Of a stretch of 64,000 nucleotides of DNA, positions 20,333 to 47,341 are shown piece after piece. Where the stretch lies: contig NZ_JANQBA010000006.1 in NCBI RefSeq assembly GCF_025490915.1, positions 1-64,000 of the forward strand. Direction: 5' to 3'. The notes under the pieces are model-generated. The model had not been told where the DNA came from and did no database searches. It was given only the letters and a program-made list of their open reading frames with translations. This DNA is from Lacticaseibacillus parakribbianus (GTDB taxonomy: Bacteria; Bacillota; Bacilli; Lactobacillales; Lactobacillaceae). The first letter of the stretch is position 1. Every line of letters begins with the position of its first letter. The translations under genes were made by a program, and so were the position numbers.

Positions 20333-20760
20333 GGAACCCGTTGAGAGGGTGGAACAAGGCGGGTTTAGCGGGGCGGCAAGCGTAGGACTGGCGCTTGGCG
20401 CGTCCTTTGCGTCGAGTGCCAGTCCTAGCTGGACGCACCCGCGTTGCCTTGGGGAACCCGTTGAGAGGGTGGAACAAGGCGGGTTTAGCGGGGCGGCAAG
20501 CGTAGGACTGGCGCTTGGCGCGTCCTTTGCGTCGAGTGCCAGTCCTAGCTGGACGCACCCGCGTTGCCTTGGGGAACCCGTTTAGCCGGTGGAACAAGGC
20601 GGGTTTAGCGGGGCGGCAAGCGTAGGACTGGCGCTTGGCGCGTCCTTTGCGTCGAGTGCCAGTCCTAGCTGGACGCACCCGCGTTGCCTTGGGGAACCCG
20701 TTTAGCCGGTGGAACGCCGTGCAGTTAGCGGGACGGATAGCCTACCCGCTCCCGCCTCCC
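20333..20760 (+). repeat. Repeat array A: three 120-bp long-hairpin units plus a partial fourth
   Basis: Units at 20341, 20461 and 20581 have a 120-bp period. The first two are identical, and the third differs only in its first 10 bp. A diverged, shortened unit starts at 20701. Each unit can fold into one long hairpin: CAAGGC/GCCTTG outermost, then GCGGGT/ACCCGC, TAGGACTGGC/GCCAGTCCTA, and the apical CTTGGCGC/GCGTCGAG. The array begins about 10 bp beyond the stop of the DUF1659 gene. Related arrays lie at 37.7, 39.2, 43.0 and 46.9 kb. Open frames across it are repeat artefacts. Confidence 0.95.
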
Positions 20761-20769
20761 GCCTCACGG

Positions 20770-20997
20770 TTACGCGGTCGGCGCCTCGCTGTCTGCGGTG
20801 ACCTGGTAGACCTTGGTCATCACGGCGTCCGCCAGGTGGTAGCCTGGGTTGAGAATCGCCAGGGCCTCACCGTAGCTGGTGACCGACGCGTCGCGCGGAT
20901 CGAGGTTGACGTTGCCGAAGCTGCGCTTGAACGTGTCCGTAGCGTCAGTGTCGTTCGCGTAGGTGTACACCACGTGAACAGATTGAATCAGTTGCAT
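20770..20997 (-). CDS. DUF1659-family small protein
   Basis: This 75-residue protein starts MQLIQSVHVVYTY and contains FKRSFGNVNLD followed by SYGEALAILN, the layout of DUF1659 proteins (strand, TFxNV-like segment, helix). Function is unknown. The ATG at 20997 has GGGAGG 8 nt upstream; a GTG at 21006 is too close to that site. It normally pairs with a DUF2922 gene; here the partner at 20075-20302 lies beyond repeat array A, so both may still be on one transcript. It is divergent from the GH25 lysozyme gene, with a large hairpin between them. Confidence 0.7.
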   Translation of the reverse strand: MQLIQSVHVVYTYANDTDATDTFKRSFGNVNLDPRDASVTSYGEALAILNPGYHLADAVMTKVYQVTADSEAPTA

Positions 20998-21050
20998 TGC
21001 ACTCACCTCCCTTGCGGCCGGATTAAGCTCTCGCTTGGGCCTACACCTTT

Positions 21051-21113
21051 AAGACAACAATTTTGGCCAAAAGTGCTAGGGGGTCTAGCAACTTTTGTCA
21101 AAATTGTTGTCTT
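21051..21113. promoter_or_regulatory. Large near-perfect hairpin in the DUF1659-lysozyme divergent region
   Basis: AAGACAACAATTTTG and CAAAATTGTTGTCTT form a perfect 15-bp outer stem. Inside it AAAAGT/ACTTTT and GCTAG/CTAGC pair around a GGGGT loop. It ends 7 bp before the lysozyme ribosome site and has no T run. It could be an operator or a leader hairpin controlling the lysozyme gene. Confidence 0.6.
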
Positions 21114-21135
21114 AGTCAGTAAGGAGGCGAAAACA

Positions 21136-22188
21136 ATGACACTCAATGGCATCGATATTTCCAGCAACAACGCACTCAACGGGCACTACATCAACGCCGG
21201 CGGCATCCCCGGCAGCTTCGTGATCGTCAAGGCCACGGAAGGCGTCGCCTACAAGAACCCGGTGATGGCCCTCAACCTGAAGCAGGCGAGCGACTCGGGC
21301 AAGCTGATTGGGCTTTACCACTACCTGCGCAACAACGACCCGGTGCGGGAGGCCGACTACTTTCTGGACGCGGCCGGGCCTTACCTGGGCCGGGCGCTGT
21401 TGGCGCTCGACATCGAAGACGGGCCGCTGCTCAGCCAGGCCGGGCCGGATCACGGGCTGCTTTTTCTTCAGCGCATTGTCAGCCTGACCGGCGTCCGGCC
21501 GTTGGTCTACACCAACCTGGCCGAGGAACGCACCCGCAACTGGGCCAAGGTCGTGCAAGGGGGCTTTGGCCTGTGGCTGGCCCAGTACAACAACTACAAC
21601 CAGGTCACCGGCTACCAGCCCCGGCCGCTGCCGGCCGCACCGCGCTGGTGGCCGGCGGCGACGCTTTTTCAGTACACCAGCAGCGGCCGGCTGCCGGGCT
21701 GGGCCGGGCCCTTGGACTTCGACGTGTTCAGCGGCGGCAGCGCCGACTGGGCGGCCCTGGCCGCTGGCGCCAAGAATACCGCGGCGGTCACGCCCAAGGA
21801 CCCGGTGGTGACCGCCGCCCAGGCCTTCCTCAACCAGCGCTTCAAGGCGGGGCTGGCCACCGACGGCGTGGCGGGACCGCTGACGAAAAAGGCGCTGGTG
21901 CGTGGTGTCCAGACCACGCTCAACGCCTTGTACCACGCGGGGCTGGCCGTCGATGGCGTGTTCGGGCCCCGCTCGGCCCAGGCGGTGCGGCCGCTTGGCA
22001 CCGGCGCCAGCGGCGACCTGGTGCGGCTGATTCAGATTGGCCTGCACCTGGCCGGCCACGACCCGCAAGGCGTGGACGGGGTGTTCGGCGCCAAGACCCG
22101 CGCCGCGGTGGTGGCCTTCCAGCAGGCCAGGCGGCTGGTGGCCGATGGCATCGTCGGACCCCTGACCGCCACTCAGCTGTTCGCGTGA
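21136..22188 (+). CDS. GH25 muramidase with peptidoglycan-binding domains
   Basis: This 350-residue protein has an N-terminal GH25 lysozyme domain (1-205) with Asp7 in GIDISS and Asp92/Glu94 in LALDIED at the active site. The C-terminal part (230-350) holds two peptidoglycan-binding-type modules with the repeated phrases DGVAGPLT, DGVFGPRS, DGVFGAKT and DGIVGPLT. It would cleave beta-1,4 bonds in wall glycans. There is no signal peptide, as in phage endolysins, so release would need a holin or lysis; no other phage genes lie nearby. The start at 21136 has AAGGAGG 8 nt upstream. A strong hairpin precedes it and a terminator follows. Confidence 0.9.
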   Translation: MTLNGIDISSNNALNGHYINAGGIPGSFVIVKATEGVAYKNPVMALNLKQASDSGKLIGLYHYLRNNDPVREADYFLDAAGPYLGRALLALDIEDGPLLSQAGPDHGLLFLQRIVSLTGVRPLVYTNLAEERTRNWAKVVQGGFGLWLAQYNNYNQVTGYQPRPLPAAPRWWPAATLFQYTSSGRLPGWAGPLDFDVFSGGSADWAALAAGAKNTAAVTPKDPVVTAAQAFLNQRFKAGLATDGVAGPLTKKALVRGVQTTLNALYHAGLAVDGVFGPRSAQAVRPLGTGASGDLVRLIQIGLHLAGHDPQGVDGVFGAKTRAAVVAFQQARRLVADGIVGPLTATQLFA

Positions 22189-22209
22189 CCCGACCGCCGC
22201 CAACAGACC

Positions 22210-22271
22210 AAAAAGCCGCGGGTATCACGCGGCTGCTGTCTCAGCAGCTGCGCCGGCACCCGCGGCTTTTT
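22210..22271. terminator. Bidirectional terminator between lysozyme and comK-like genes
   Basis: AAAAAGCCGCGGGT/ACCCGCGGCTTTTT is a 14-bp perfect stem, with a second GCTGCTG/CAGCAGC hairpin inside. It serves two convergent genes. Confidence 0.9.
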
Positions 22272-22327
22272 GAAATTCAATCGGGCCAAGGCAGCGTTCG
22301 CACCGGCCGCGGTCTGGCCGCCCCGGT

Positions 22328-22918
22328 TCAGCGGAAGCCGAACGCGCTGCGGCCGCTTTGCAGGTCGTCGATCACCAGCTTCCGCAGGCGCCCGGCCGCC
22401 TCGCAGCGCCGCACGAAGGTCGCTGGGCTCATCGGCGTCGCGACCAGCCGCAGGACGTGCCACCGCCCGTCGCCGAGTCGCACCTGACAGCTGAAGCCTG
22501 CCGGGCCCAGGCAGGTCGCGCGGTACACGCGGCCCATCCCCAGCCACAAGCTGCCGGTCGGGCTGCGGGTCAGACACACCAGGTGGTTGTGCAGGTACGG
22601 CAGACTCCAAGGCAGCGCGGCAACCCCCAATTCCGCTTCGACCTGCCGCTCACAGGCGGCGAGGTCGGCCGCCCCCCGCTTCTGACTGTCCCGGGCGGCC
22701 GCGATCAGCTGGGCCGGCGAACAATCGCTTCGGTACCAACGGCCGTGAGCCAAAAGCACCGCACCAGGGCCACCGGAAGCGTTGGCGACGGCCACTAGCA
22801 GCGCGACGCCGTCCAGTGACGCCCCGCTGTGCCAATCCGCCGTGGTCAGCGCTTGCGGCGCGACCGGGTAACCATCAAGCGTCAGGATCACCGCCGATTT
22901 TTGCTTTGTCGTTCTCAT
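22328..22918 (-). CDS. comK: ComK-like competence regulator
   Basis: This 196-residue protein matches the ComK layout. The N-terminal part contains SDCSPAQLIAAARDSQKRG, which aligns with the C.......Y.GR segment. The C-terminal part reads LPYLHNHLVCLTRSPTGSLWLGMGRVYRA, then a strand pair and ATPMSPATFVRRCEAAGRLRKL, like LPTxSPxxxxCxWLxxxHI and the SxxxFxxQxxRAxxL end of ComK. ComK proteins activate DNA-uptake genes by binding AT boxes. Similarity is moderate, so the function is inferred. The start at 22918 has AAGGAGG upstream, and the promoter region is very AT-rich. It is divergent from a ComX/SigH-like sigma gene. Confidence 0.65.
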   Translation of the reverse strand: MRTTKQKSAVILTLDGYPVAPQALTTADWHSGASLDGVALLVAVANASGGPGAVLLAHGRWYRSDCSPAQLIAAARDSQKRGAADLAACERQVEAELGVAALPWSLPYLHNHLVCLTRSPTGSLWLGMGRVYRATCLGPAGFSCQVRLGDGRWHVLRLVATPMSPATFVRRCEAAGRLRKLVIDDLQSGRSAFGFR

Positions 22919-22973
22919 CTGAATCCCTCCTTAGCCTAAAATCGTTTTCATTCTAGCAACATTTTTATAAATA

Positions 22974-22999
22974 TACGAATATTATGCTCATTTCGAATA
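22974..22999 (+). promoter_or_regulatory. cin-box-like motifs between comK-like and sigma-factor genes
   Basis: TACGAATA (22974-22981) is identical to the streptococcal ComX cin-box, and TTCGAATA follows at 22992-22999. Both point towards the sigma-factor gene at 23210. The surrounding 60 bp is AT-rich and may also hold the comK-like promoter. Confidence 0.4.
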
Positions 23000-23209
23000 A
23001 AAATCGGCCGGAGTTTCACTTAACAATTGCCGTGCGGCCGCCACTTGCGCCGGCCGCACCGGACCCAGTGCCGCCAGGCCCCGTCGTATCGGTCCTGGCC
23101 ACGCCGAAGGTCGCGTTGGCGCCGGCGCGACCCCGCGGTAACCTGACGTCATCATCGATGAATAACCCGCGCGGTTGACTGCAGCGACCGCGTCCGAGAA
23201 GGCATTGTG

Positions 23210-23731
23210 ATGACCCTTGACATCGATTCCCTGCTCCGCGACTATGACCCCCTGATTCGCCGGGTGGCGACCCACGCCGGCGACTTCGACCAGTTCTACG
23301 GGGAGGCGCTGGAACTCGCCTGGCACTTCATCGCCACCGAGTACCCGGCCTACCAGTCCCGCGGCGCAAGTGACGACTTCGCTCACCTGCTGGCCTGGCG
23401 CCTCAAGCGCAGCTTGGCCACCCTGGCTCGCAACCGCCGCACTGGCCAACGGCGCCAGGACCGCGTCGCCCGGGTCCTGCAGGAGGCAGTCCGGGAGCCA
23501 CCGCCGGCCGCGCAGCCGATTGAGCCGCTGCTGGTGACGGAGGCGCTGGTCGGACTTTGGCCGCGGCTCACCGCAAGCGAGCGGCGGGTGCTGAACCTGG
23601 CCTACCAAGGCGCGACCAACGCCGCGATCGCCCGGGAGCTCGGCCTGTCGCACCAGCGCGTCACCCAGCTGCGAGCCGCCATTCGCAAGAAATTTTTGGC
23701 GGCAAATAATGATAGCGGTCCCAACCGTTGA
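23210..23731 (+). CDS. ComX/SigH-like RNA polymerase sigma factor
   Basis: This 173-residue protein has the shape of a small sigma-70 factor: an N-terminal region-2-like helical part (DYDPLIRRVATHAGDFDQFYGEALELAW) and a C-terminal region-4 HTH (ERRVLNLAYQGATNAAIARELGLS, then HQRVTQLRAAIRKKF). Length and lack of extra domains fit the ComX/SigH-like factors that lactobacilli and streptococci use for late competence genes. It stands divergent from a ComK-like gene, which supports a competence role by inference. Start ATG 23210 has GAAGG 7 nt upstream; a GTG codon directly before is less likely. The downstream membrane protein gene may be co-transcribed. Confidence 0.7.
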   Translation: MTLDIDSLLRDYDPLIRRVATHAGDFDQFYGEALELAWHFIATEYPAYQSRGASDDFAHLLAWRLKRSLATLARNRRTGQRRQDRVARVLQEAVREPPPAAQPIEPLLVTEALVGLWPRLTASERRVLNLAYQGATNAAIARELGLSHQRVTQLRAAIRKKFLAANNDSGPNR

Positions 23732-23794
23732 GTGATAGAATGATTAGAAAATGAGCGCATCGTGAGACTCACGGTCGCGCTGACGGAGGCCGCC

Positions 23795-25060
23795 ATGCAC
23801 GGATTACTGTCGCTCGAGCTCAAGAAGCACCCCTGGTCGCTGCACCTCGCTGCCCTGCTCGGTCTGCTGCTGCTTTTCGCGGTGCCGCTGGGGCACCACC
23901 TCGGGATTCTCACCACCACCTACCGCTACGTCGCCGGCACCCGTTTTCCCTCCTACGACCCAAGCCCCGCCACGACGATGGAACAGGCGGCGCCTGGCCA
24001 GCGAGCGGCCGCAAAGCGCCAGGTACTTGCCGACTTGAAGGCCAATCCCAACCTCACCGCCGCCAAGCCGACGCTGGCTTTGCTGAGCGCGATTCGCGAC
24101 CCGCTGGCCGAACGCGACTACCTGACCGTCGACCGGCTGACGCTCGCCGCCATCACCAAGCACCCCGAGATTCTCGACAACATCGGGAGGCTGGACTTCA
24201 TCGAAAACACCTTCACCAGCTCCCAGCTGAACCTGGAGGCCAAGCAGCAGATTCTAGCCTACTACGTCAAGCACCGCATCAACGCGCTGCCGGCGATCGC
24301 CAGCCGCGGCACGGCCGCCGCTGCGGTCTACGGCGTGTTCTCCCACTACGGCAGCCACGTCTGGAAGTGGACGATGGTCGGCACCCGCAAGCACTACTTC
24401 TACAAGCTCAACGCCGGCACCACGCTGACTTGGGTGTTTCTCTTCTACGCCGCCTTCGTGCTGACGGCGGCGCTTGGGTACGACCAGCGCCACAACACCG
24501 AGACCCTGATGCGCATGACGCCGCGCCGCGACCTGCGCATGGTCGCGACGCAGGCGGCCCTCACGCTCGCCGTCATCGCCGTCGTGCTGGTCGCCTTGGT
24601 CGGCCTGGCGATGCTGATCACCGCCATCGTGCCGGGCAAGCGCATGGGAACCCTGTGGCAGCCGGTGCTTCACACCACCCCGGCCAGCGTCTACCTGACG
24701 CCGATGTGGCAGGAGATTGCGCTGCAGCTCGGAATGCTGTGGCTTTGGGCAGCGCTTTTGGCCGGCGTCGCCTTCCTGGTCACGCAGCTCACTGACAACC
24801 CGCTGCTGGCGCTGCTGATGACCTGCGCCGCGTTCTTCCTGGCACCGCTGCACGTGCTGGACGCCTTGCCGTTGGCGGTGCAAAAAGTGCTGCCGGCCTT
24901 TTACACCAACCCGCCGGCCATCTTGGCCAAGGCCGAGCCCTTCAACAACACGACGCCGGCGAGCGTCTTTCTCGTGCTGGCGGTTTGGGCGGTCGGCTTT
25001 TGGGCCGCTGCGGCGGTCGTGCAGCAGCTGCGCTACCGCCGGCTGGTGCTGGGCCACTAG
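23795..25060 (+). CDS. ABC-2-permease-like membrane protein of unknown function
   Basis: This is a 421-residue membrane protein. One helix near 15-33 is followed by a large extracytoplasmic loop (about 35-205), then about six more helices (near 213, 260, 310, 335, 365 and 395). The layout of N-terminal helix, long loop and C-terminal helix bundle resembles ABC-2-type export permeases, but no ATPase gene is adjacent. The start at 23795 was chosen because GGAGG stands 5 nt upstream. It begins 63 bp after the sigma-factor gene on the same strand, so the two may form a unit. Function is not known. Confidence 0.65.
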   Translation: MHGLLSLELKKHPWSLHLAALLGLLLLFAVPLGHHLGILTTTYRYVAGTRFPSYDPSPATTMEQAAPGQRAAAKRQVLADLKANPNLTAAKPTLALLSAIRDPLAERDYLTVDRLTLAAITKHPEILDNIGRLDFIENTFTSSQLNLEAKQQILAYYVKHRINALPAIASRGTAAAAVYGVFSHYGSHVWKWTMVGTRKHYFYKLNAGTTLTWVFLFYAAFVLTAALGYDQRHNTETLMRMTPRRDLRMVATQAALTLAVIAVVLVALVGLAMLITAIVPGKRMGTLWQPVLHTTPASVYLTPMWQEIALQLGMLWLWAALLAGVAFLVTQLTDNPLLALLMTCAAFFLAPLHVLDALPLAVQKVLPAFYTNPPAILAKAEPFNNTTPASVFLVLAVWAVGFWAAAAVVQQLRYRRLVLGH

Positions 25061-25087
25061 GTTCGGTGATCTGAATCCAGCTACGCC

Positions 25088-25145: not shown

Positions 25146-25150
25146 GGTTT

Positions 25151-27957: not shown

Positions 27958-27974
27958 GCGGCACCTCCATTATT

Positions 27975-36023: not shown

Positions 36024-37694
36024 ATGAAGAGAAAAACACTTGGCATCACCCTGACCGCCGCCGCCTTAACGCTGTTGCTCAGCGCTTGCGGCGGCAAGCA
36101 AAACGCGGCCACAACGGCCACGCTGAATCTGGTTCAGGCCTCCGATCCCACCACCGTCGACGTCAACGACGTGCGTAACGCCAACGAGTTCGACGTGCTG
36201 AACGCCACCCAAGAAGGGCTGTTTCGCATCACCTCCAAGAACGGCCACGACGGGCTGCAGCTGGCGCAGGCCAAGTCCTACACCGTCTCCAAGGACGGTC
36301 TGACCTACACGTTCAAGCTGCGGGACGCCAAGTGGAGCGACGGCAAGGCGGTGACCGCCCAGCAGTTCGTCGACTCCATCATCCGCGAGCTGACCCCCAA
36401 GAACGCGTTCGCCTACGCCTCCATGGCCTACGACATACGGGGGGCCGAGGCCTTCAACACCGGCAAGGGTACCGCGGCGCAGGTCGGTGCCAAGGCGCTT
36501 GACGCCCACACCCTGCAGCTGACGCTCGCCAACAAGACCCCGTACTTCCTCAAGAAGCTCGCAAGCGTCGTCTTCTACCCCGTGCGGCTGGATTTGATCC
36601 AAAAGGCCGGCGGCACCAAGGCCTGGAAGACCGATTGGCAAGACCAGGTCTCCAACGGCGCCTACACCATCCAGTCCTGGAAGAAGAACGGCAAGATCGT
36701 GCTGGCCAAAAACCCGAAGTTCTGGAACGCCAAGAAGGTCAGCTTCACTAAGGTCAACATCACCACCACCGCCAAGGACGCGACCGTCTTGTCGCTTCTG
36801 CAATCCGGGCAGCTGGACTTCGTGAAGGCCAGCGGGGCCCAGGCCGCCGATTTTGACAAGCTATCCTCAAGCGCCAAGCTGAGCAAGTCGACGCAGGCCA
36901 GCGGCAACACCTCCTTTTTGGCCTTCAACCAGCACAACGGCGGCCTGTCTAAGCTGATGACCAACGCCAAAATTCGCCAGGCGCTGTCTTTGGCCATCAA
37001 CCGCGAGGCCTACAACAAGGCCGTCGCCAACGGCCAGAGCAAGGCGGTCTACAGCTTCGTGCCGGCCTCGATCTCCGTTGGCACCAGCAACTACCACGAC
37101 TACGCCGGCGACCTGCTGAAACCAGCCTTGGCCAAGTACAACACGAACGCCAAGCTCCAGGCGCTTTTCAAGGCCGGCCTCAAGGAGCTCGGCCAGTCGA
37201 CCGACCTGGCGAAGGTCAAGCTGACCTACCTGACCATGGCCGGCGACGAGGACACCTCGAGCTTTCTGGCCCAAACCTACAAGCAGTCGCTTGGCATCAC
37301 CGTCAAGGCCGTGGTCGCCCCGGATTCCGCGTCCTTCATCGCCGCGCGTAATGGCAACAAGTACGACCTGTTGACCAACGGCTGGAACGGCGACTACGAC
37401 GATCCGTCGACCTTCCTGAACCTGTGGGTCTCCACCGGCGGCTTCCAGCAGTTCTTCGGCGGCTACAACGACCCCGCCTACGACAAGCTCTACGCGACGC
37501 TGGCGCCGGTCGCCGACACCAAGTCGCGCCTGGCCATCTACAAGCGCCTGGAGACGCTGCTTTTGACCAAGGACTACGGCGTCGCCCCGCTGATCTCCGA
37601 CCAAAACCGCTACTATGTCGCCAAGGACATCAAGGGCATTCAGACCCCAACCTTCGGCCCGGATTTGGATTACGTCTACGCGACGAGAGGGTGA
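36024..37694 (+). CDS. oppA: Oligopeptide ABC transporter substrate-binding lipoprotein
   Basis: This is a 556-residue family-5 extracellular binding protein. The signal peptide ends in the lipobox LLLSAC with Cys22 as lipid anchor. The domain pattern is typical: PTTVDVNDVRNANEFDVLNATQEGLFR at the start, KWSDGKAVTAQQFVDS, NPKFWNAKKV, KIRQALSLAINRE, and a late NGWNGDYDDPSTFLNL segment. It captures peptides for the OppBCDF importer encoded downstream. The start at 36024 has AAGGAGA upstream. The gene is followed directly by repeat array B, then a 500-bp gap before oppB. Confidence 0.93.
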   Translation: MKRKTLGITLTAAALTLLLSACGGKQNAATTATLNLVQASDPTTVDVNDVRNANEFDVLNATQEGLFRITSKNGHDGLQLAQAKSYTVSKDGLTYTFKLRDAKWSDGKAVTAQQFVDSIIRELTPKNAFAYASMAYDIRGAEAFNTGKGTAAQVGAKALDAHTLQLTLANKTPYFLKKLASVVFYPVRLDLIQKAGGTKAWKTDWQDQVSNGAYTIQSWKKNGKIVLAKNPKFWNAKKVSFTKVNITTTAKDATVLSLLQSGQLDFVKASGAQAADFDKLSSSAKLSKSTQASGNTSFLAFNQHNGGLSKLMTNAKIRQALSLAINREAYNKAVANGQSKAVYSFVPASISVGTSNYHDYAGDLLKPALAKYNTNAKLQALFKAGLKELGQSTDLAKVKLTYLTMAGDEDTSSFLAQTYKQSLGITVKAVVAPDSASFIAARNGNKYDLLTNGWNGDYDDPSTFLNLWVSTGGFQQFFGGYNDPAYDKLYATLAPVADTKSRLAIYKRLETLLLTKDYGVAPLISDQNRYYVAKDIKGIQTPTFGPDLDYVYATRG

Positions 37695-37695
37695 G

Positions 37696-37810
37696 CTGCG
37701 GCGGGTTTAGCGGGACCGGTAGCCTAGCCGTGGCGCTTGGGACGCGGGCCTGGTCCCGAGTAACGCGGCGTCGCTAGCCGCTCCCGCGTTGCTGCAGGGA
37801 ACCCGTTTGA
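37696..37810 (+). repeat. Repeat array B: one long-hairpin unit
   Basis: A single unit of the same family as arrays A, C, D and E starts at the oppA stop codon and ends with GGAACCCGTTTGA. Conserved core words are AGCGGGACCGGTAGCCTAGCC on one arm and GCTAGCCGCTCCCGC on the other. The apical stem differs from array A but is still paired. Confidence 0.9.
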
Positions 37811-38022
37811 AGGCCGCGGCCTCCGGGCCCCGGGCCACCTCGAACGGTGCGGCCGGCCTCCGCACGGCTCCGGCCTAAAAGCTGAGCCAAGCCGTTGCCT
37901 ACGGCCCCGTGCTTGTCTCAGCTTTTGCCGGGATTGGCCGCGCGAATGCCCCGCAAGACCCGCGGGTCATCCGGGCCGCCAATCCTTTCACGGTCCGAGG
38001 TGGCCCGGGGCCCTGCGGCCGC
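37811..38022. repeat. Inverted repeat with 34-bp arms, second repeat family
   Basis: Arms at 37816-37849 and 37989-38022 are inverted copies (GCGGCC..GGGCCCCGGGCC and its complement, with a few mismatches). The left half (37811-37876) has a close relative at 43295-43354. Inside lies the terminator-like hairpin 37877-37926. No gene fits 37811-38230. Confidence 0.75.
37877..37926. terminator. Bidirectional terminator-like hairpin in the oppA-oppB gap
   Basis: AAAAGCTGAG.CAAGC pairs with GCTTG.CTCAGCTTTT (15 of 16 positions), with A and T tails on both sides. Confidence 0.65.
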
Positions 38023-38230
38023 TACATAGTGGTTGTGCTGGGCGTCAGGCGCTTGGGTAATCGACTCACGACCTGTGCGAAACGCGTTTGGGAGCCCGAA
38101 TCGGCATCTTGCAATCAAGGCGCGGATTCAGGCCACACGTTGCGATCGGCTGGACGATTGGTGCCACGACCACCGAGGATTGAAACTGTCTCACGACGTC
38201 CATCGACATCCTCGCCACAAGGAGAAAGTC

Positions 38231-39181
38231 ATGTTCAAAATCATTTTGAGGCGGCTCGTTGAGCTGTTCGTCTCACTGTTTCTCATCGCCAGTGCCACCT
38301 TTTTCCTGCTGGCGGCGGTGCCGGGCGACGCGCTGTCGGCGCAAACCGACCGGCTACCGGCGGCGACGCGGCGGCAGGTCTACGCCAACACCGGGCTGGA
38401 CAAGCCGGTGCTTGAGCGCTACGGCCTGACCATGGTCAAGATGCTGCACGGCGACTTCGGCACGTCGATCGTCGACCCCAGCGAGACCATGAGCCGCGTG
38501 TTGGCCGAGAAGCTGCCGCCGAGTGCCAGGCTGGGGCTGCAGGAGATGCTGATCGGCATCCCCCTGGGGCTTCTCCTCGGCGTTTTGGCCGCGGTGTTCA
38601 AAAACACCTGGGTCGACCGGCTGATCACGGTGGCCGTTTTACTTCTGATGTCCGTGCCCAGCCTGATTATCGCGCTGCTTTTGCAAAGCTACTTCGGCGG
38701 CAAGCTCGGGTGGTTCCCCATCATCGGCTGGCCGGAGGGGGCGCAGCTTTGGTGGGGCGGCTGGTCCTACACCATTTTGCCGACCATCGCCGGGGGGCTT
38801 GGCTACATCGCCGCTTACGCCCGGTTGCTGAAAAACTCGATGCTCGACGTGCTGTCGGCCGATTACGTGCTGACCGCCCGGGCCAAGGGGCTGTCCGAGC
38901 CGCGGATTGTGCTTCACCACGTGATTCGTAACGCCGCGATTCCGATTGTCACCAGCCTGCCGGTCACGGTCGCGTTCGGCATCACCGGTTCGGTGTTCGT
39001 CGAAAGCATTTTCGTCATTCCCGGCGTCGGTCAGTACTTCGTTCAGGCGCTGACCAACCGCGACGTGCCGATTGTGATGGGCGAAACCGTGCTGCTGGCG
39101 GCGCTCTACATCGTCACCCTGTTTCTCACCGACCTGCTGTACATGGCGGTGGATCCAAGAATCAAACTGTACCAGGATTAG
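38231..39181 (+). CDS. oppB: Oligopeptide ABC transporter permease (OppB)
   Basis: This 316-residue permease has six helices. The first helix (RRLVELFVSLFLIASATFFLL) and the phrase GDFGTSIVDPSETMSRVLAEKLP are characteristic of OppB/DppB. The EAA-type loop reads DYVLTARAKGLSEPRIVLHHVIRNA. It forms the channel with OppC. The start at 38231 has AAGGAGA upstream. Repeat array C begins directly after the stop. Confidence 0.94.
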   Translation: MFKIILRRLVELFVSLFLIASATFFLLAAVPGDALSAQTDRLPAATRRQVYANTGLDKPVLERYGLTMVKMLHGDFGTSIVDPSETMSRVLAEKLPPSARLGLQEMLIGIPLGLLLGVLAAVFKNTWVDRLITVAVLLLMSVPSLIIALLLQSYFGGKLGWFPIIGWPEGAQLWWGGWSYTILPTIAGGLGYIAAYARLLKNSMLDVLSADYVLTARAKGLSEPRIVLHHVIRNAAIPIVTSLPVTVAFGITGSVFVESIFVIPGVGQYFVQALTNRDVPIVMGETVLLAALYIVTLFLTDLLYMAVDPRIKLYQD

Positions 39182-39550
39182 AGGGTGGCGCCGAGCGGCC
39201 TTAGCGGGACGGGTAGCCTAGCCGTGGTGCTTGGGGCCTGCACTTGGTCCCGAGTGACGCGGCGTCGCTAGCCGCTCCCGCGTTGCTCGGCGGAACCCGT
39301 TTAGGGGCGGAGCCGAGCGGCCTTAGCGGGACGGGTAGCCTAGCCGTGGCGCTTGGGGCCTGCACTTGGCCCCGAGTGACGCGGCGTCGCTAGCCGCTCC
39401 CGCGTTGCTCGGCGGAACCCGTTTAGAGGGTGGCGCCGAGCGACCTTAGCGGGACGGGTAGCCTAGCCGTAGCGCTTGGGGCCGGCACTTGGCCCCAGGC
39501 GACCCGAGCAGGACGCACTTCGGCGACGTCACGGGAAGCCCGTTTCGAGC
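39182..39550 (+). repeat. Repeat array C: three long-hairpin units
   Basis: Units start at 39182, about 39304 and about 39427, with a period of 122-123 bp. The third decays after its first half. Unit ends carry GCCGAGC/GCTCGGC in place of the CAAGGC/GCCTTG of array A, and the apical stem is CTTGGGGCC/GGCCCCGAG. It lies between oppB and oppC and starts at the oppB stop codon. Confidence 0.95.
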
Positions 39551-39598
39551 GTGTCACCGCTCACCGCCACACTCGCACAACAATCATTGGAGGTCACC

Positions 39599-40513
39599 AT
39601 GGATAATTCCGCCTTTCGCTTCGTGTCACGCCGGCCCGATGCGGCTGCGCCAACCGCGCAACCGCCCAAAAGCATCGGGTTCTGGCAGGCCGCGGGGCAT
39701 AAGCTGCTCAAGGACCACCTGGCCATGGTCTGGCTGGTCATTTTGCTGGCGCTGGTCCTCGTCGCCTTGATCGGGCCGCTGGCGTCTAGCGCCAGCCCCT
39801 ACACGATTCACGTCAACCTGCGGAACGCGGCGCCGAGTGCCGCGCATTGGTTCGGCACCGACCACCTGGGCCGCGACCTGTTCGTTCGCACCTGCCTGGG
39901 CGTCCGGGTGTCTTTGGCCGTCGGGCTGGTCGCCACGTTTTTGGCCATCGGCTTTGGCACCGTCTACGGCATGGTGATGAGCTTCTTCGGCGGCTGGGTC
40001 GATGAGCTTTTGATGCGCATCATCGAGATTTTCAACTCGCTGCCGGGGCTGCTCGTCACCATGATCATCATGATCGTGCTGGGCAACGGCGTCTCCACGA
40101 TGCTGTTCGCTTTGGCAATCACCAGCTGGTCGGGGGCGGCGCGGCAGGCCCGGGGGCTGGTGCTGCAGCTGCGCCAGGCCGATTACGTCACCGCCGCGGT
40201 GATGCTTGACACCCCGCTCTACAAAATCATGGCGCGACACCTGGTGCCGAACATGATGAGCATTTTGATTCTGGACATCGGCCAAAGCATCCCCGGCAAC
40301 ATTTTCGCCGAGGCCGGGCTGAGCTTCCTAGGCCTGGGCATCCAGGCGCCGAACACCAGCCTCGGGCTTTTGATCTCGGACGGGCAAAACCAGATGCTGC
40401 AGTCGCCCAGCCAGCTGTACATCCCGGTGGCGATTCTGGTCGTCATCGTCTTGGCCTTCAACATTCTGGGCGACGGGCTGCGCGACGCCCTCGACCCCAA
40501 GTTCAGGGGGTGA
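39599..40513 (+). CDS. oppC: Oligopeptide ABC transporter permease (OppC)
   Basis: This 304-residue permease has a cytoplasmic N-terminus (SRRPDAAAPTAQPPKS), a first helix at about 43-65, the OppC/DppC phrase HWFGTDHLGRDLFVRTCLG and the EAA loop DYVTAAVMLDTPLYKIMARHL. It ends with DGLRDALDPKFRG, typical of the family. The start at 39599 has GGAGGTC upstream; the long GC-rich frame before it is repeat DNA. The next small gene starts 5 bp after its stop. Confidence 0.94.
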   Translation: MDNSAFRFVSRRPDAAAPTAQPPKSIGFWQAAGHKLLKDHLAMVWLVILLALVLVALIGPLASSASPYTIHVNLRNAAPSAAHWFGTDHLGRDLFVRTCLGVRVSLAVGLVATFLAIGFGTVYGMVMSFFGGWVDELLMRIIEIFNSLPGLLVTMIIMIVLGNGVSTMLFALAITSWSGAARQARGLVLQLRQADYVTAAVMLDTPLYKIMARHLVPNMMSILILDIGQSIPGNIFAEAGLSFLGLGIQAPNTSLGLLISDGQNQMLQSPSQLYIPVAILVVIVLAFNILGDGLRDALDPKFRG

Positions 40514-40517
40514 GCGC

Positions 40518-40865
40518 ATGCCAGTGACTCACGCCAAAACGCCGCTCGCACCCTTGCCGCAGCGTCAGCTTAGGCGCCGGCACATTGCCTTGCTCGGTCT
40601 GGGGCTGGCCCTTGGCCTGGCCGCTTTGGCTTGGAACCTGACCCGCTACCCGCTGGCCGTGGCCGTGCTTTGGACCGGCCACAGCCTGAGCTGGGGCGTG
40701 GCCGGCCTGACCGCCTTGGCCCTGGCCGGCCGCCTGCTGGTCTCGCCCCTCCGGCCGGGCCGGCTCGGTGCCGCCTATCGCCGGGCGACCCCGCGACCGC
40801 TGCGGTTGATCGCCGGGCTCGCCGCGGCAATCGCCATCGGCGCCGCCTTGGACACCTTGCTGTAA
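40518..40865 (+). CDS. Small membrane protein of unknown function in the opp cluster
   Basis: I do not recognise this 115-residue protein. It has a basic start (RRRH), three likely helices (about 22-40, 47-70 and 93-112) and Arg/Pro-rich loops. GGGGGTGAGC precedes the ATG. It lies 5 bp after oppC and before oppD, so it is co-transcribed with the peptide transporter; a role in that complex is possible but has no direct support. Confidence 0.6.
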   Translation: MPVTHAKTPLAPLPQRQLRRRHIALLGLGLALGLAALAWNLTRYPLAVAVLWTGHSLSWGVAGLTALALAGRLLVSPLRPGRLGAAYRRATPRPLRLIAGLAAAIAIGAALDTLL

Positions 40866-40945
40866 ACGGGCTGGGCCCTCTCGCGTTAAACGGGATCGGC
40901 CTTCTCGCGTCAACGGGCTGGGCCCTCTCGCTTAAACGTGCTGGG
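40864..40945 (+). repeat. Short tandem repeat before oppD
   Basis: About three and a half imperfect copies of a 23-24 bp unit (AAACGGGCTGGGCCCTCTCG) lie between the small membrane gene and oppD. The rest of the gap to 41098 holds only the oppD ribosome site GGAGG. Confidence 0.8.
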
Positions 40946-41098
40946 CCGAGCATCGCGGAAGTTGCTTGCACTGAGGCGCGAAGCCAAGACCGCTTGCACC
41001 GAGGCCGCAACGCCGGGCCAAGGGCTGGCCCAGGTGCCACACCCGGTCGACTCGTCCCGGACAGAATGCGCGGCGCCGCTTTTTAATTGGAGGACACC

Positions 41099-42148
41099 AT
41101 GTCAGACATCATTGAGATTCAAAACCTGCACGTTCAGTTCCAAGAAGACCACGGCATTCTCCACGCCGTCAACGGGGTCGACCTGACCGTCCATCAAGGC
41201 GAGACGCTGGCGATTGTCGGCGAATCCGGCTCCGGCAAGTCCGTCACGACCCACGCGCTGCTCGGTCTGTTGGGCAAGGACGCGACCGTCACGACCGATG
41301 CCATGCGCCTGGCCGACGTCGACTTGACCCACGCGACGCCGCGGGACTTCGCCGGGGTTCGCGGCCGGCTGGCGTCCCTGATTTTTCAAGACCCCCTGAG
41401 TGCCCTGAACCCGACCATGCGCATCGGCCGCCAGATTGGCGAGGCGCTGACCGTCTGGCACCACCCGGGCAAAGCCGCGCTGCGCCAGGCGGTGCTGGAA
41501 GCGATCGCCGACGTCGAGCTGCCCGACCCGGCCCTAGTCGCCAGCAAGTACCCGCACGAGCTGTCGGGCGGCCAGCGCCAGCGCGTGATGATCGCCCAGG
41601 CGCTGATCGCCCAGCCGCGGGTTTTGATCGCCGACGAGCCGACCACGGCGCTTGACGTCACCCTGCAGGCGCAGGTGCTGGCGCTGATTCAGGCGCAAAA
41701 AGCCAAGCGCGACCTCAGCGTCGTTTTCATCACCCACGACCTGGGCGTGGTCGCCAACATCGCCGACCGCGTCGCCATCATGTATGCCGGCCAGATTGTC
41801 GAGGTCGGCACCGCCACCGAGATTTTCTACCACCCGCAGCACCCCTACACCTGGGGGCTGCTCGACGCCGTACCAGACGACACGGCCGATCGCAGCGAGC
41901 TGTTCACGCTGCCCGGCACCCCGCCGGACATGCACCAGCTGCCGGTCGGCGACCCGTTCGCCCCGCGCAATCCCCAGGCGTTGGCGATCGATTACCAGCA
42001 GGCGCCGCCGGTCTTTGCCGTCACGCCGACCCACCGGGTGCGGTCGTGGCTGCTCGACCCCCGCACCCCGCCTTACCAGCCGCCGGTCAGCATCCAGCGC
42101 CGCTGGGCCCGTTACGCCGCAATCATGAAGGAGGCCAGCCATGCCTGA
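41099..42148 (+). CDS. oppD: Oligopeptide ABC transporter ATPase (OppD)
   Basis: This 349-residue ATPase has Walker A GESGSGKS, signature LSGGQRQRVMIA, Walker B VLIADEPTTALDVT and switch FITHDLGVVA. The C-terminal oligopeptide/dipeptide ABC extension starts near 240 (HPYTWGLLDAVPD); the Cys cluster found in some OppD proteins (iron-sulfur) is absent. The start at 41099 has GGAGG 5 nt upstream. It overlaps oppF by 8 bp. Confidence 0.94.
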   Translation: MSDIIEIQNLHVQFQEDHGILHAVNGVDLTVHQGETLAIVGESGSGKSVTTHALLGLLGKDATVTTDAMRLADVDLTHATPRDFAGVRGRLASLIFQDPLSALNPTMRIGRQIGEALTVWHHPGKAALRQAVLEAIADVELPDPALVASKYPHELSGGQRQRVMIAQALIAQPRVLIADEPTTALDVTLQAQVLALIQAQKAKRDLSVVFITHDLGVVANIADRVAIMYAGQIVEVGTATEIFYHPQHPYTWGLLDAVPDDTADRSELFTLPGTPPDMHQLPVGDPFAPRNPQALAIDYQQAPPVFAVTPTHRVRSWLLDPRTPPYQPPVSIQRRWARYAAIMKEASHA

Positions 42149-43013: not shown

Positions 43014-43280
43014 CCAGGGCGGAGCGGCGCGTATTTAGCGAACCGAGTAGCGCCGGGCCGTTGCTTGAGGCCTGGGCTTGGCCTCGAGTGACGGCCCTAG
43101 CTAATCGCGTTCGCGTTGCGTCGCGGAGCCCGACGATCCAGGGCGGAGCGGCGCGTATTTAGCGGGACGGGTAGCCTAGCCCCAAGTCCCGCGGCGTAGC
43201 TAGCCGCTCCCGCGTTGCGTCGCGGAGCCCGACAATCCAGGGCGAAGCCCGGCGGGTTTAGCGGGACGGGTACGAAATCG
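43014..43280 (+). repeat. Repeat array D: one full unit, one with the apex deleted, one truncated
   Basis: Unit 1 (about 43014-43137) is full size. Unit 2 (about 43138-43236) has lost the apical stem and joins TAGCC to AGTCCCGCGGCG. Unit 3 (about 43237-43280) keeps only the left arm. Outer arms are GCGGCGCG/GCGTCGC, again different from the other arrays but paired. The array starts at the oppF stop codon. Confidence 0.92.
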
Positions 43281-43294
43281 TTTGGCGAGCTAAG

Positions 43295-43354: not shown

Positions 43355-43365
43355 GCGACAAAACT

Positions 43366-43408
43366 AAAGCGAGCCGCCTTCCCGAATTCGGGAAAGCGGC
43401 TCGCTTTT
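43366..43408. terminator. Bidirectional terminator between opp and the HTH gene
   Basis: AAAGCGAGCCGC/GCGGCTCGCTTT, with TTCCCGAATTCGGGAA inside, forms a nearly continuous stem for two convergent genes. Confidence 0.92.
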
Positions 43409-43421
43409 GACGTCCGACTGG

Positions 43422-43766: not shown

Positions 43767-43901
43767 GGTGTGCCTCCTTTGGGCGTTACTTAACTCTATT
43801 GTAACGCACTTGGTCGCGGATTGGGGGCAGGGAAAAAGCACCGCTTACGTCGTCGGTCATCCTGCTTGCCTTGCCGCGAGCGGTCAAGGGCGCCGTCTCG
43901 C

Positions 43902-45098
43902 TCACCGCGGCTCCGGCCGGTCGTCGTCGGTGGTGGTGCCGTCCGGGGCGGCTGGGTCGCTCAAAGTCGCGTCTTGCACCGTGCTGATCTGGGTCGTGTC
44001 GGCCCAGACGTCGTAGAAGTAGCGGTTGTCGCGGGTCACGACCTCCCAGAGGAAGTTGGCGACCAAGAACACCGCGGGTATCGCCAGCAGTCCCAGCAAG
44101 ATGAAGTTGGTCTCGGTGCGGTGGAACTTGCTGAAAATCTGCTCGAACACCCACTGGAACGCTCGCATGACGTTGAACGCGGCGCCGTACAGCAGGAACT
44201 CGCGCCACCACACCCGCCAGATGCTGGCGGGACTGCCATCGGCCCGGACGATGCGGATCCGCACCGCCCGTTTGCCCGGCGTCTGGCCGTTCATCAGAAG
44301 CGGCGCCAAGCCGAAGGTCAAAAGCATCCCGGCGACGTTGCCGAACAAGGTCAGATCGGTGGCGACCCCGAGCAGCTGCAGCAGCAGGTGAGCCAGGGCC
44401 CCGAGCAGGCTGGCCACGATGAGGTTATCGATCAGCATCGCCACCAGCCGCCGCGTCCAGGTCACGCGTCGGCCTTTTTGGATGGCGGCTTGGTCCATTT
44501 CGTCGCGCGACGGGAAAACGCGCATCAAGGTCGGCGCCAGCAGGCCACCCAACGTCCCGCCAAGCGTGTTCAAGATCAGGTCGTCGACCTCAAACAGCCG
44601 GTACGGCCGCGGGTAGTACCCGTACAGGCCGGACAGCTGGGTCAGCTCGAAGAACAAACTCAGCGTGAAGCTCGCGATCACCACCTGCCACACCGGCCGC
44701 TTGAAGTAGTAGCGCAGATACACGCCGAAGGGCAGCGTCAAGGCGACGTTGAACAGCGGCATGAAAAACGTCGACTCCCGCACCGTCGCCAGCCAGGTCG
44801 CCGGCTGGTTCCAGACGAACGGCGTGGCCGCCAGGAACTCGGCCAGCTCGTGGAACGGCACCAGGCTGTAGCGCGGCGTGGTCAACGCCGCAACGCTGGC
44901 GCGGTCCGGCAGCGGCAGGATCACCAGGAAGTAGGCGGCCAGCAGGTAGAAGATGAAGGTGTAGACCACCACCGCTCGCCAGGCGATCAGGCTGCCGTAG
45001 CGGCGGTACTGGCCGAGCAGGAAGGGCAAGGCGATGAGCAGCGCGATGACCGGGAAGGTCAGCGCCGCCATTTTGAGGGGAAAAACATAGGCACTCAC
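43902..45098 (-). CDS. VanZ-like and RDD-domain fusion membrane protein
   Basis: This is a membrane protein of about 398 residues. The first half (1-210) is VanZ-like, with the phrases SLVPFHELAEF, FNVALTLPFGVYLRYYF and LTQLSGLYGYYPRPYRLFEVDDLILNT spread over several helices. The second half (about 213-370) is an RDD domain starting RRLVAMLIDNLIVASLLGA and containing GQTPGKRAVRIRIVRADG. The tail is acidic. VanZ proteins are linked to glycopeptide tolerance; RDD proteins are of varied or unknown role. GTG 45098 was preferred because GAGGA stands 6 nt upstream; an ATG at 45104 is adjacent to that site. Confidence 0.85.
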   Translation of the reverse strand: MSAYVFPLKMAALTFPVIALLIALPFLLGQYRRYGSLIAWRAVVVYTFIFYLLAAYFLVILPLPDRASVAALTTPRYSLVPFHELAEFLAATPFVWNQPATWLATVRESTFFMPLFNVALTLPFGVYLRYYFKRPVWQVVIASFTLSLFFELTQLSGLYGYYPRPYRLFEVDDLILNTLGGTLGGLLAPTLMRVFPSRDEMDQAAIQKGRRVTWTRRLVAMLIDNLIVASLLGALAHLLLQLLGVATDLTLFGNVAGMLLTFGLAPLLMNGQTPGKRAVRIRIVRADGSPASIWRVWWREFLLYGAAFNVMRAFQWVFEQIFSKFHRTETNFILLGLLAIPAVFLVANFLWEVVTRDNRYFYDVWADTTQISTVQDATLSDPAAPDGTTTDDDRPEPR

Positions 45099-45221
45099 AG
45101 GCATTCCTCACTTTGATTAGGCTAGTTCCATTATATGAAACTAACCGGCAAGTTAACAGCCGCGAATCTTTGGGGTAAACTGAATTAACGCCACAATCAC
45201 GGATAATGAAAGGTTCATCAC

Positions 45222-46244
45222 ATGCCACAATCTCACCGCATCTTCTACTTCGACGCGCTACGGGCCCTCGGCTGCCTGCTGGTCGTTTTGACCCACGTCA
45301 CCTCGCAGTTCTTAATCGGCCCCCCGGCTCGCAGCTACTGGGTAGTGACCGCCGCCCTGAACAACGGCACCCGCGCCGCCGTGCCGCTGTTCATCATGAT
45401 CTCCGGCGCCTTGTTCCTCGATCCCGACCGCCCCGTCGCGTTCGCTCGCCTGCTGCGCAAAAACGTGCTGCGGCTGGTGGTGATGCTGGTCGCGTGGAAC
45501 CTCATCTACGCCGTCGCCGAATGGGTGCGGTCGCACGACTGGTCCCAAGTCACCCACACCCTGCTGCTCGGCCCCTTCCACCTCTGGTTCCTCTACGCCT
45601 TGATCGGCTGCTACCTGATGGTGCCGCTGCTGCGGCCGATCACGGCCAATCCGCGGCTGATGGGCTGGGCCCTGACGCTTGCGGCGGTGTTCACCGTGCT
45701 GCCGGCCACCGCCCAGCCGTTCCTGCGGCCGGGCAGCCCGGTGCTGGCGCTTTTGACCCAGTTTCACGTGCCGACGCTTGGCAGCTACGTGTTTTACTTC
45801 GTGCTGGGCTACGCGCTGCACCGTGCGACGCTCTCGCGGCTTCAGACCTGGGTGCTGGCCGCGGCCGGGCTGGTCGGCACCCTGGGCATGATCTGGCTGA
45901 CCCAAGTCGCGTCGGTCGCCGCCGGTCACCTCGATCAGGCCTTCCAGGCCAACCTCGGGCTGTGGATTCTGCTGCAAGCGACCGGCTGGTTTTCGCTGGC
46001 TAAGGCCTACTGGAACCGGCCGTTGCCGCGGGGCGTCGCCTTTCTCGCCGCGGTATCGCTGCCGGTTTACCTGGTTCATCCGCTGGTGCTTGGGCTCTTG
46101 CAGCGCGTCGGGCTGGTGCGGCCGGGGTTGCACTGGCTGGTCTTGGTCTACCTGCTGGTGCTGGCCGGCTCGCTGGTGTTCGGCGCGGTCTATCACTGGG
46201 GGCAAAAGCAGCTGCACCGCCAGGGAACGCCGGTTAAAAGCTGA
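45222..46244 (+). CDS. Acyltransferase-3 family membrane protein
   Basis: This 340-residue protein has about ten helices. The start IFYFDALRALGCLLVVLTHV is the acyltransferase-3 signature, with the catalytic His in LTHV; FLYALIGCYLMVPLLRP and SLPVYLVHPLVL also fit. Such proteins acetylate surface polysaccharides or peptidoglycan. The target here is unknown. AAAGG stands 8 nt before the ATG. The next gene starts 35 bp downstream and is probably co-transcribed. Confidence 0.9.
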   Translation: MPQSHRIFYFDALRALGCLLVVLTHVTSQFLIGPPARSYWVVTAALNNGTRAAVPLFIMISGALFLDPDRPVAFARLLRKNVLRLVVMLVAWNLIYAVAEWVRSHDWSQVTHTLLLGPFHLWFLYALIGCYLMVPLLRPITANPRLMGWALTLAAVFTVLPATAQPFLRPGSPVLALLTQFHVPTLGSYVFYFVLGYALHRATLSRLQTWVLAAAGLVGTLGMIWLTQVASVAAGHLDQAFQANLGLWILLQATGWFSLAKAYWNRPLPRGVAFLAAVSLPVYLVHPLVLGLLQRVGLVRPGLHWLVLVYLLVLAGSLVFGAVYHWGQKQLHRQGTPVKS

Positions 46245-46279
46245 CTGACGATGACTTTCGGGCAAAGGAGCGACGACGC

Positions 46280-46777
46280 ATGACCGCAACTCACCACCAC
46301 TGGCGCTACCTGGCGCCGCTTGGCATCGGCACCGTTGTCCTCGGCGCGGTGTTGCTGATGCCGATGCCCCTCCCCATTCAGGATTACGAACCCGGCGCCG
46401 GCCTCGCCTTGGGCGGCGTAACCAACGGTTTGGGCAGCGGCCTGATTCTGGTCGGCGTCGCTGCCATTCTGGTCGGTCTCGGGCTCGACGCGCGTCGGGC
46501 CAACACACGCGGTCGCGTCTGGCGCGGGGCCGTTGCGCTGGCGCTAATGCTTGGGCTCTGGGGCGGCGGCCGCGGCCTGACCACCTACACCGGCGCTATC
46601 GTGTCGGCCAGCGGCGGCGAGCTGACGGTTCGCGCCAGCGGCCGCACCTTCGTTTTGACCGGCACCGCGCCGCCGCAAACCGCCGCGACCCACGTCACCT
46701 TCACCCTGCGCTGGCCGCTGATCGCCTGGGGTGCGACCACCGCCGTACAACCCCAATCGGTGACCTTCAGCAAGTGA
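46280..46777 (+). CDS. Small membrane protein of unknown function
   Basis: This is a 165-residue protein with three likely helices (about 10-28, 50-68 and 82-96) followed by an outside domain of about 60 residues with beta character (GGELTVRASGRTFVLTGTAP). I do not recognise it. AAAGGAG stands 9 nt upstream. It follows the acyltransferase gene and ends at a terminator, so the two form an operon; a role linked to surface modification is only inference. Confidence 0.65.
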   Translation: MTATHHHWRYLAPLGIGTVVLGAVLLMPMPLPIQDYEPGAGLALGGVTNGLGSGLILVGVAAILVGLGLDARRANTRGRVWRGAVALALMLGLWGGGRGLTTYTGAIVSASGGELTVRASGRTFVLTGTAPPQTAATHVTFTLRWPLIAWGATTAVQPQSVTFSK

Positions 46778-46807
46778 CGCCGCCGACCAAAATGCCGACG
46801 AGACAGC

Positions 46808-46846
46808 AAACAACCGGCCCCCCGCTTGGGGAGGACCGGTTGTTTT
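46808..46846 (+). terminator. Terminator of the acyltransferase operon
   Basis: AAACAACCGG/CCGGTTGTTT with CCCC/GGGG inside, followed by TTTT. Confidence 0.9.
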
Positions 46847-46865
46847 GGTGTGTCGGACGAATTCG

Positions 46866-47341
46866 TGGTTGAGGCGGCTAGCTACGCACCAGCACTCGAG
46901 GCCAAGTTCGGGCCCCAAGCGTTGGCGCTAGGCTACCCGTCCTGCTAAGAGCGCGTCCTTACGCTCTGGTTTCGTCGAGCTTCACCCGGCAACGCGGGAG
47001 CGGCTAGCTACGCACCAGCACTCGAGGCCAAGTTCGGGCCTCAAGCGCTGGCGCTAGGCTACCCGTCCCGCTAAGAGCGCGTCCTTACGCTCTGGTTTCG
47101 TCGAGCTTCACCCGGCAACGCGGGAGCGGCTAGCTACGCCCTGGCGCCGAGGCATAACCCGCCTCAACGCCAGGGCTAGGCTACCCGTCCCGCTAATCCC
47201 GCCGGCTTACGCTCTGGTTCGTCGAGCTTCAGGCCGCAACGCGGGAGCGGCTAGCTACGCACCAGCACTCGAGGCCAAGTTCAGGCCTCAAGCGCTGGCG
47301 CTAGGCTACCCGTCCCGCTAAGAGCGCGTCCTTACGCTCTG
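46866..47341 (-). repeat. Repeat array E: four long-hairpin units in reverse orientation
   Basis: Units begin at 46875, 47001, 47127 and 47248 (periods 126, 126 and 121 bp). Core words CGGCTAGCTACGC and GGCTACCCGTCCCGCTAA are the complement of the core of arrays B-D. Unit 3 has a different apical stem, CCCTGGCG/CGCCAGGG, in place of CCAGC/GCTGG, but remains paired. The array ends 4 bp from the stop of the ABC permease gene at 47346, which is also on the minus strand. Confidence 0.95.

Follow-up and report, generated by a model that had tools for sequence, protein, structure and literature searches.

Why should five intergenic regions within one stretch of a Lacticaseibacillus parakribbianus genome carry hairpins of about 120 bp whose arms differ from array to array and yet still pair? 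The stretch (NCBI RefSeq assembly GCF_025490915.1, contig NZ_JANQBA010000006.1, positions 1 to 64,000 of the forward strand; hereafter, the window, 64,000 nucleotides (nt) in all) includes an opp-like gene cluster. A first-pass annotation had suggested either that the hairpin structure itself is kept or that the units spread as structured DNA, in the manner of repetitive extragenic palindromes (REP) and bacterial interspersed mosaic elements (BIME). The arrays belong to an abundant extragenic family with a strand-specific, covarying fold and anchored 5' ends, and orthologous sites in a related species are occupied in some cases and unoccupied in others. On balance, we lean towards regarding the arrays as mobile non-coding palindromes, similar to REP and to miniature inverted-repeat transposable elements (MITE), that would be moved as a folded single (sense) strand by an enzyme supplied in trans.

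The five arrays are real, and the family is larger than had been noted. With a covariance model, at least 150 matches were obtained in the own genome (G000; 2.82 Mb in 32 contigs) when the best 150 of 2826 candidates were scored, with an E-value of 1.4e-10 for the weakest, and blastn with one unit gave at least 76 matches there (best 40 of 102 candidates scored). The possibility that no further genomic copies exist, which would have spoken against a family, can thus be set aside, and the high copy number supports REP/BIME-like dispersal. An nhmmer profile was built on 89 distinct units, after three of 92 aligned full units had been dropped for apex deletions or degeneration. It was applied to 488 kb of the own genome, namely 40 stretches (17% of the genome) picked for carrying matches, so densities in them are not genome averages. 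In these, 172 units, 151 of them near full length, were identified in 73 arrays of one to six units, those of one array not being mutually independent, and the family occupies approximately 20 kb within this sampled 17%. The unit is a hairpin of approximately 122 nt, and the units are extragenic and clustered; none of the arrays lies within a gene as called by our own codon-usage script, which is not a standard annotator. In contig C23 of the own genome, a run of N (between 96523 and 96624) lies between two repeat arrays and is possibly an assembly gap due to the repeats.

Arrays were typed by their 3' ends (type I, NAG...CGTTT; type II, CCAG...CGACGA). Those of the window, including a new sixth array, are as follows:

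20344..20705, plus strand: array A, three near-identical type I units (20344-20465, 20464-20586 and 20589-20705; nhmmer)
20708..20744, plus strand: 5' part of a fourth, collapsed array A unit (nhmmer, E 7.2e-5)
37686..37810, plus strand: array B, a single type I unit (profile match)
39180..39546, plus strand: array C, units 39180-39304 and 39305-39427 and a degenerate unit 39425-39546 (profile matches)
approximately 40866..41059, minus strand: array F, the new sixth array, collapsed units and outer-frame mini-hairpins of about 18 nt
43014..43236, plus strand: array D, type II unit 43014-43137 and apex-deleted unit 43138-43236 (profile matches)
43237..43272, plus strand: 5' part of a third, 3'-truncated array D unit (model positions 2-37; nhmmer, E 1.4e-5)
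46872..47342, minus strand: array E, type II units 47342-47217, 47217-47096 and 47095-46970 and a 3'-truncated last unit 46969-46872

In place of the approximately 14 full or partial units first counted, the five original arrays thus hold 13 units and two 5' fragments. The TGA of the array B unit is the stop codon of an oppA-like gene, array C lies between oppB-like and oppC-like genes and opens with the gene's TAG, array D is immediately 3' of the TGA of the last opp ATPase-like gene, and array E begins just past the TAA of an ABC-2-type membrane gene (47346-48110). Array A is antisense to both of its small flanking genes; it starts upstream of the ribosome-binding site of one of them (antisense gene 20075-20302), and on its 3' side is the stop codon of the next, antisense gene 20770-20997. 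Therefore, four of the five arrays, and not all five, begin at a stop codon, and these four do match the orientation of the upstream gene, as had been stated. Similarly, of the three arrays placed between opp genes, B and C lie between opp-like genes as judged by Pfam domains, but D follows the last one. The two minus-strand genes that array A separates are a 75-aa gene pair, DUF2922-like and with a sub-threshold DUF1659 match (Pfam).

Array F is flanked by a TAA (40863-40865) and the gene at 41099-42148, and is supported by weak nhmmer pieces (E 0.005 and 0.69) and by mini-units recognised by eye. Its mini-hairpins are apparently the residue of inner-hairpin deletion. For comparison, genome G006 was taken as Lacticaseibacillus kribbianus; on its contig NZ_JAIPUL010000003.1, OppB has 97% identity to the OppB of the window. 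The array F locus holds one full unit in this species, the array C site is also occupied there, by partly different units, and the site orthologous to array B has no array.

Cut in register with the model, nine of the 12 window units (the 3'-truncated unit left out) have one hairpin as their minimum-energy fold, at -52.5 to -86.0 kcal/mol. The description of each unit as one end-to-end hairpin holds for these nine and fails for three that fold branched, namely A3, which has an altered outer arm, the degenerate C3, and E3, whose arms are mismatched. Across the 89 distinct units, 24 of the 31 consensus pairs have changes on both sides, 94.2% of cells are paired versus 78.3% after shuffling, and the covariation score is 0.465 versus 0.171 for shuffled units and at most 0.09 for slid-partner controls. 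The arms do differ between arrays and yet pair, as first described, with covariation far above the shuffles. An absence of significant covariation, named at the outset as telling against the idea, was not found, with relatedness controlled by shuffles and slid partners rather than by a tree, so that kinship is not fully removed. In 18 pairs of similar units at sites shared with L. kribbianus, pairing had survived changes on both sides in 36 base pairs and on one side in 31, versus 33 that were broken, and thus the structure is largely maintained; among unpaired positions of the same 18 unit pairs, which are not independent, 122 of 636 had changed.

The fold is also strand-specific. The sense strand folds better than the antisense strand in 148 of 150 distinct full units, by a mean of 13.7 kcal/mol, and is likewise the better folder in 34 of 36 units of other genomes (two of own genus). 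One G.U pair is found in 89 of 89 units, and G.U exceeds A.C at consensus pairs by 250 to 37. Furthermore, the 44 units antisense to both neighbours fold like the 49 that are sense to both (-76.9 versus -76.7 kcal/mol, P 0.77). Transcription of the flanking genes is thus not visibly what maintains the structure. The suggestion that the arrays are probably transcribed is accordingly not general, since 18 of the 73 are antisense to both neighbours.

The 5' ends of the arrays are anchored to particular features of the flanking DNA. Among 72 classifiable arrays, the 5' end falls at -13 to +3 relative to a stop codon on the same strand in 25 (1.9 expected); in 14 others, at least four consecutive T occur within 16 nt of it (5.4 expected); and a further 12 begin at most 24 nt from an antisense start codon (2.4 expected). 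The expected counts were obtained by drawing non-coding positions uniformly from the sampled stretches. At most of the antisense-start junctions, strings complementary to the Shine-Dalgarno (SD) sequence (CCTCC, TCCTT) are directly 5' of the unit, and several type I arrays have a unit start that overlaps the stop codon (TAG or TGA) of the gene. The attachment to stop codons that was first described is thus a strong association and not a general rule, because 12 arrays adjoin an antisense start and 14 a T-tract, and 21 have none of the three features. Target choice is not the same for the two end types: type II arrays comprise 14 at stop codons, 13 at T-tracts, one at an antisense start, and 11 elsewhere, and type I arrays 11, one, 11, and 10, respectively (T-tract versus antisense start, Fisher P 2.7e-5). 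Relative to their two neighbouring genes, the 73 arrays are oriented same/same in 27 cases, opposite/opposite in 18, opposite/same in 15, and same/opposite in 13.

Occupancy varies between the two species. Of 38 own sites that could be compared, 26 have units in the same orientation in L. kribbianus, two have units in the other orientation only, and 10 have none; globally aligned, nine of these 10 are mostly too diverged to give a clean empty site. Conversely, no array was detected in the own genome for 14 of 39 comparable L. kribbianus arrays. Some of these 14 immediately follow a stop codon (K4:205507, K4:220373, K4:176158), whilst others follow a T-tract (K4:63113, K4:8426, K5:371548) or are next to an antisense SD sequence (K5:259229, K4:199621). 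At shared sites, the best matches of 61 full own units were at 85% or more for 12, at 60-85% for 48, and lower for one, with a median of 77%; for the flanking blocks, the median is 88% (range 72-96), and positions therefore outlast most units.

Some units are also nested in a second dispersed structure, a GC-rich repeat that folds into several hairpin arms:

37812..38060, minus strand: window copy of the second repeat, branched (fold z-score -7.5)

This repeat is present at nine other places in the own genome (our count of 14 blastn pieces), including contigs C3, C10, C23, and C29, and in 22 copies across the own and L. kribbianus stretches. Five of the 22, all from L. kribbianus, hold one 122-nt unit at the same point of one arm's loop and in the same orientation, and 17 are empty there. 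The similarity of this loop to the linker that joins tandem units hints at a way in which arrays may grow. Truncation is polar: units without their 3' part number 20 in the own genome and nine in L. kribbianus, and apart from three that stand alone, 26 of 26 are the last of a multi-unit array. Units without their 5' part number none and two, respectively, one of the latter lacking both ends.

The units are, in addition, mosaic. Units whose cores are dissimilar were compared in 50 pairs from the same array and 3343 pairs from different arrays. Identity in linkers and outer arms was 84-94% for the same-array pairs versus 58-66% for the others (outer arms with the 3' linker, 0.92-0.94 versus 0.66), and in mid-outer arms 52% versus 37%, whereas in the inner part, or core, it was 56% versus 59%. 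None of 200 label shuffles reached the within-array values for linkers, outer arms, or mid-outer arms. Since outer parts are alike within arrays and cores are not, arrays keep their frame and exchange their cores; chimeric units with mismatched mid-outer arms are found inside arrays.

These observations can be joined in one route. The sense strand folds into the 122-nt bulged hairpin, and this folded single strand would be the form that is recognised and moved by an enzyme acting in trans. The 5' end of the unit would then be joined at a selected target, behind a stop codon or terminator T-tract or before an antisense ribosome-binding site. Alternatively, the target would be a loop in another hairpin; linkers between existing units would count among such loops, and their use would build tandem arrays. 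The two end types have different targets, and the inner hairpin is swapped between units while each array retains its own outer frame. Movement as single-stranded DNA, the trans-acting enzyme, growth at linkers, and the path of core exchange are what we infer from the patterns above.

Several results weigh against this explanation. If three G.U-rich column pairs are left out, G.U exceeds A.C by just 58 to 37 (P 0.04). As many as 21 of the 72 arrays fall outside all three target classes, and no constant target-site duplication or tetranucleotide was seen at the junctions read. Unit strand shows no bias relative to gene direction (27 versus 18, P 0.23), and there is therefore no sign of a lagging-strand preference. 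Among the 14 "empty" own sites, at least two (K4:173374, K5:259229) hold collapsed remnants by eye, as does at least one of the 10 "empty" L. kribbianus sites, and thus part of the polymorphism is loss. Two L. kribbianus units begin inside the model, and 5' loss therefore also happens. Finally, no mobilising enzyme was matched in the main carriers, where Y1 transposases and reverse transcriptases alone were searched.

Could the hairpins instead act in cis as RNA, with a transcribed hairpin shielding the upstream mRNA from 3' exonucleases and/or attenuating downstream transcription, so that covariation reflects selection on RNA? The sense stop codon at the start of 25 of 72 arrays, the better-folding sense strand (148 of 150 units) with its G.U pair in 89 of 89, and the arrays inside the opp-like cluster would all fit, and excerpts of PMC1590033 cite unpublished preliminary data that Efa and Ype repeats may stabilise mRNA. 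However, units in the 18 of 73 arrays that are antisense to both neighbours fold equally well, and 14 of 72 arrays follow a T-tract, where little transcript is expected if these tracts are terminators. Moreover, at shared sites the best L. kribbianus match falls short of 85% for 49 of the 61 full own units (median 77%). An RNA function is thus an unlikely explanation of the family as a whole, and a role in mRNA may nevertheless exist for some sense-oriented arrays.

Two further explanations appear more doubtful still. Neutral palindromes could owe their pairing to hairpin-templated correction or recombination, with each arm copied from the other, and their tandem arrangement to slippage and unequal exchange. 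The variation in unit number between species at shared sites and the chimeric units inside arrays are in keeping with this. However, correction predicts Watson-Crick pairs on both strands, at odds with the sense bias and with the G.U pair of all 89 units; the mismatched chimeras persist uncorrected, the sequence of the unpaired internal loop recurs among genera (by eye), and neither the anchored 5' ends nor the units nested in the second repeat are explained; we regard it as quite improbable. Only slightly less so is a known system whose enzyme was lost in this lineage, either REP/REPIN elements with a Y1 (RAYT-type) transposase or a retroelement with a reverse transcriptase. The logic of a folded strand, the extragenic arrays, and the defined 5' junction recall IS200/IS605 and REP as described in excerpts of PMC6006769, and Y1 (PF01797) and RVT_1 (PF00078) matches occur in 13 and 11 of 30 genus genomes, respectively. 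Yet neither family was matched in G000, G006, or G001, which are many-copy carriers and the strongest among the matches listed. The REP-type tyrosine transposase proposed in the first-pass annotation therefore has no match in the own genome or in these two. Nor do Y1 and the repeat track one another, given that G011 has Y1 and no repeat match and G006 the repeat and no Y1, and no GTAG foot was seen at unit ends. A MITE-type autonomous partner was looked for via the same two Pfam families alone; the unit ends are complementary just as parts of the hairpin, with short repeats at some junctions and no constant target-site duplication. Movement of a folded sense strand stays the explanation we favour, and the interpretation of the first-pass annotation is, overall, partly supported.

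The family extends well beyond L. parakribbianus, with matches across the genus, in other Lactobacillaceae, and in one genus outside that family. Within the genus, 27 of 30 genomes matched at E of at most 1e-3, the own genome included; G009, G011, and G019 had no match at this threshold among 117 candidates scored each. Matches were obtained in 27 of 251 Lactobacillaceae genomes, representing 10 of 40 genera, at E of at most 1e-4 (13 candidates scored per genome), and in 14 of 21 genomes of one further Lactobacillaceae genus at E of at most 1e-3. Order-wide, seven of 295 genomes matched (11 candidates scored each), one of which lies outside Lactobacillaceae; in the family of that genome, two of 18 match, both of one genus. 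In comparison, blastn with one unit matched the own genus alone (13 of 60). Distant units share a plan by eye, comprising 5' (N)AGAGNG or a variant, the internal loop TAGCCTAGC/GCGTAGCTA, and 3' CGTTT or CGAC. A crude rule (open frames of at least 90 codons, no chance control) places the start of 14 of the 36 units from other genomes at -12 to +3 relative to a stop codon. In some other Lactobacillaceae (L176 1176-1298 in G146 and L177 916-1039 in G072), the unit is an almost uninterrupted palindrome of about -89 kcal/mol, interrupted by fewer internal loops than units of the own genome.

It is tempting, but at this point tentative, to see in this distribution an ancient mobile class of Lactobacillales that moves only as a folded single strand, carries swappable cores in array-specific frames, and uses an enzyme that is neither Y1 nor a reverse transcriptase. 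It is an equally provisional suggestion that, in such a class, the end types split terminators from antisense ribosome-binding sites, both use stop codons, and units land in hairpin loops. If so, an abundant non-coding feature of many lactobacilli lacks a matching Rfam entry and a description that we could find; and hundreds of covarying hairpins become available for studying how palindromes move, why they land behind stop codons and terminators, and whether a novel single-strand recombinase is responsible. Arrays in operon spacers may also alter the expression of nutrient-uptake genes, such as opp. Elsewhere in the window, positions 50693-56866 (plus strand) encode a protein of 2057 aa that has collagen-binding domains and many of SpaA/SdrD type.

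The remark that no described lactobacillar repeat of this form was known is supported by the searches made. Rfam gave no match in the window at the gathering score, and at E up to 10 the five matches within 37600-39600 did not cover a unit; no published description was found in a literature search that had most subscription journals outside its coverage. A published name or Rfam family was therefore rejected, with the same weak literature coverage. Carriage by plasmids or phages was also considered and rejected: blastn with unit C1 gave nothing, and five pattern matches on viral contigs were unrelated on reading.

How, then, does the family compare with known systems? It appears to work most like REP/BIME, and its anchored junction and folded strand resemble the ends of IS200/IS605. 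Integron attC sites, too, are substrates read as folded single strands. Compared with attC and IS200/IS605, the present repeat has no cassette and no fixed target tetranucleotide, and no such enzyme was identified in the Y1 and RVT_1 searches. The substrates of IS200/IS605 are folded single strands, with a short target flanking the left end (excerpts of PMC6006769). REP, BIME, and REPIN elements are likewise short, extragenic, clustered palindromes with many copies and structure-dependent behaviour (excerpts of PMC6006769, PMC3733652, and PMC3116915), and GTAG/CGTC REPs are described in part of PMC3733652. However, REP/REPIN hairpins measure about 20-65 nt and not approximately 122 nt in one long bulged hairpin; their foot is GT[AG]G, whereas the present 5' foot is (N)AG or CCAG before the outer arm, with no GTAG seen; REP/REPIN-RAYT systems have a Y1 transposase partner, and the present host has no Y1_Tnp match; and the present family has two end types with different targets. 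The BOX, RUP, and SPRITE repeats of streptococci are also folded, small, interspersed, and proposed to be parasitic, and BOX has a variable number of tandem modules, in which the copy number of the inner boxB varies (excerpts of PMC3049150). Compared by anatomy, with no BOX sequence aligned, BOX is built as boxA-boxB(n)-boxC, whereas here whole hairpins are in tandem with a truncated last unit, and array-specific outer frames and interchangeable cores are features that BOX does not share. The Efa (E. faecalis) and Ype (Y. pestis) stem-loop repeats are larger than REP and lie preferentially near gene 3' ends (excerpts of PMC1590033). Together with BOX, RUP, and SPRITE, and with Efa compared by description only, these seem to be the nearest described repeats known to us.

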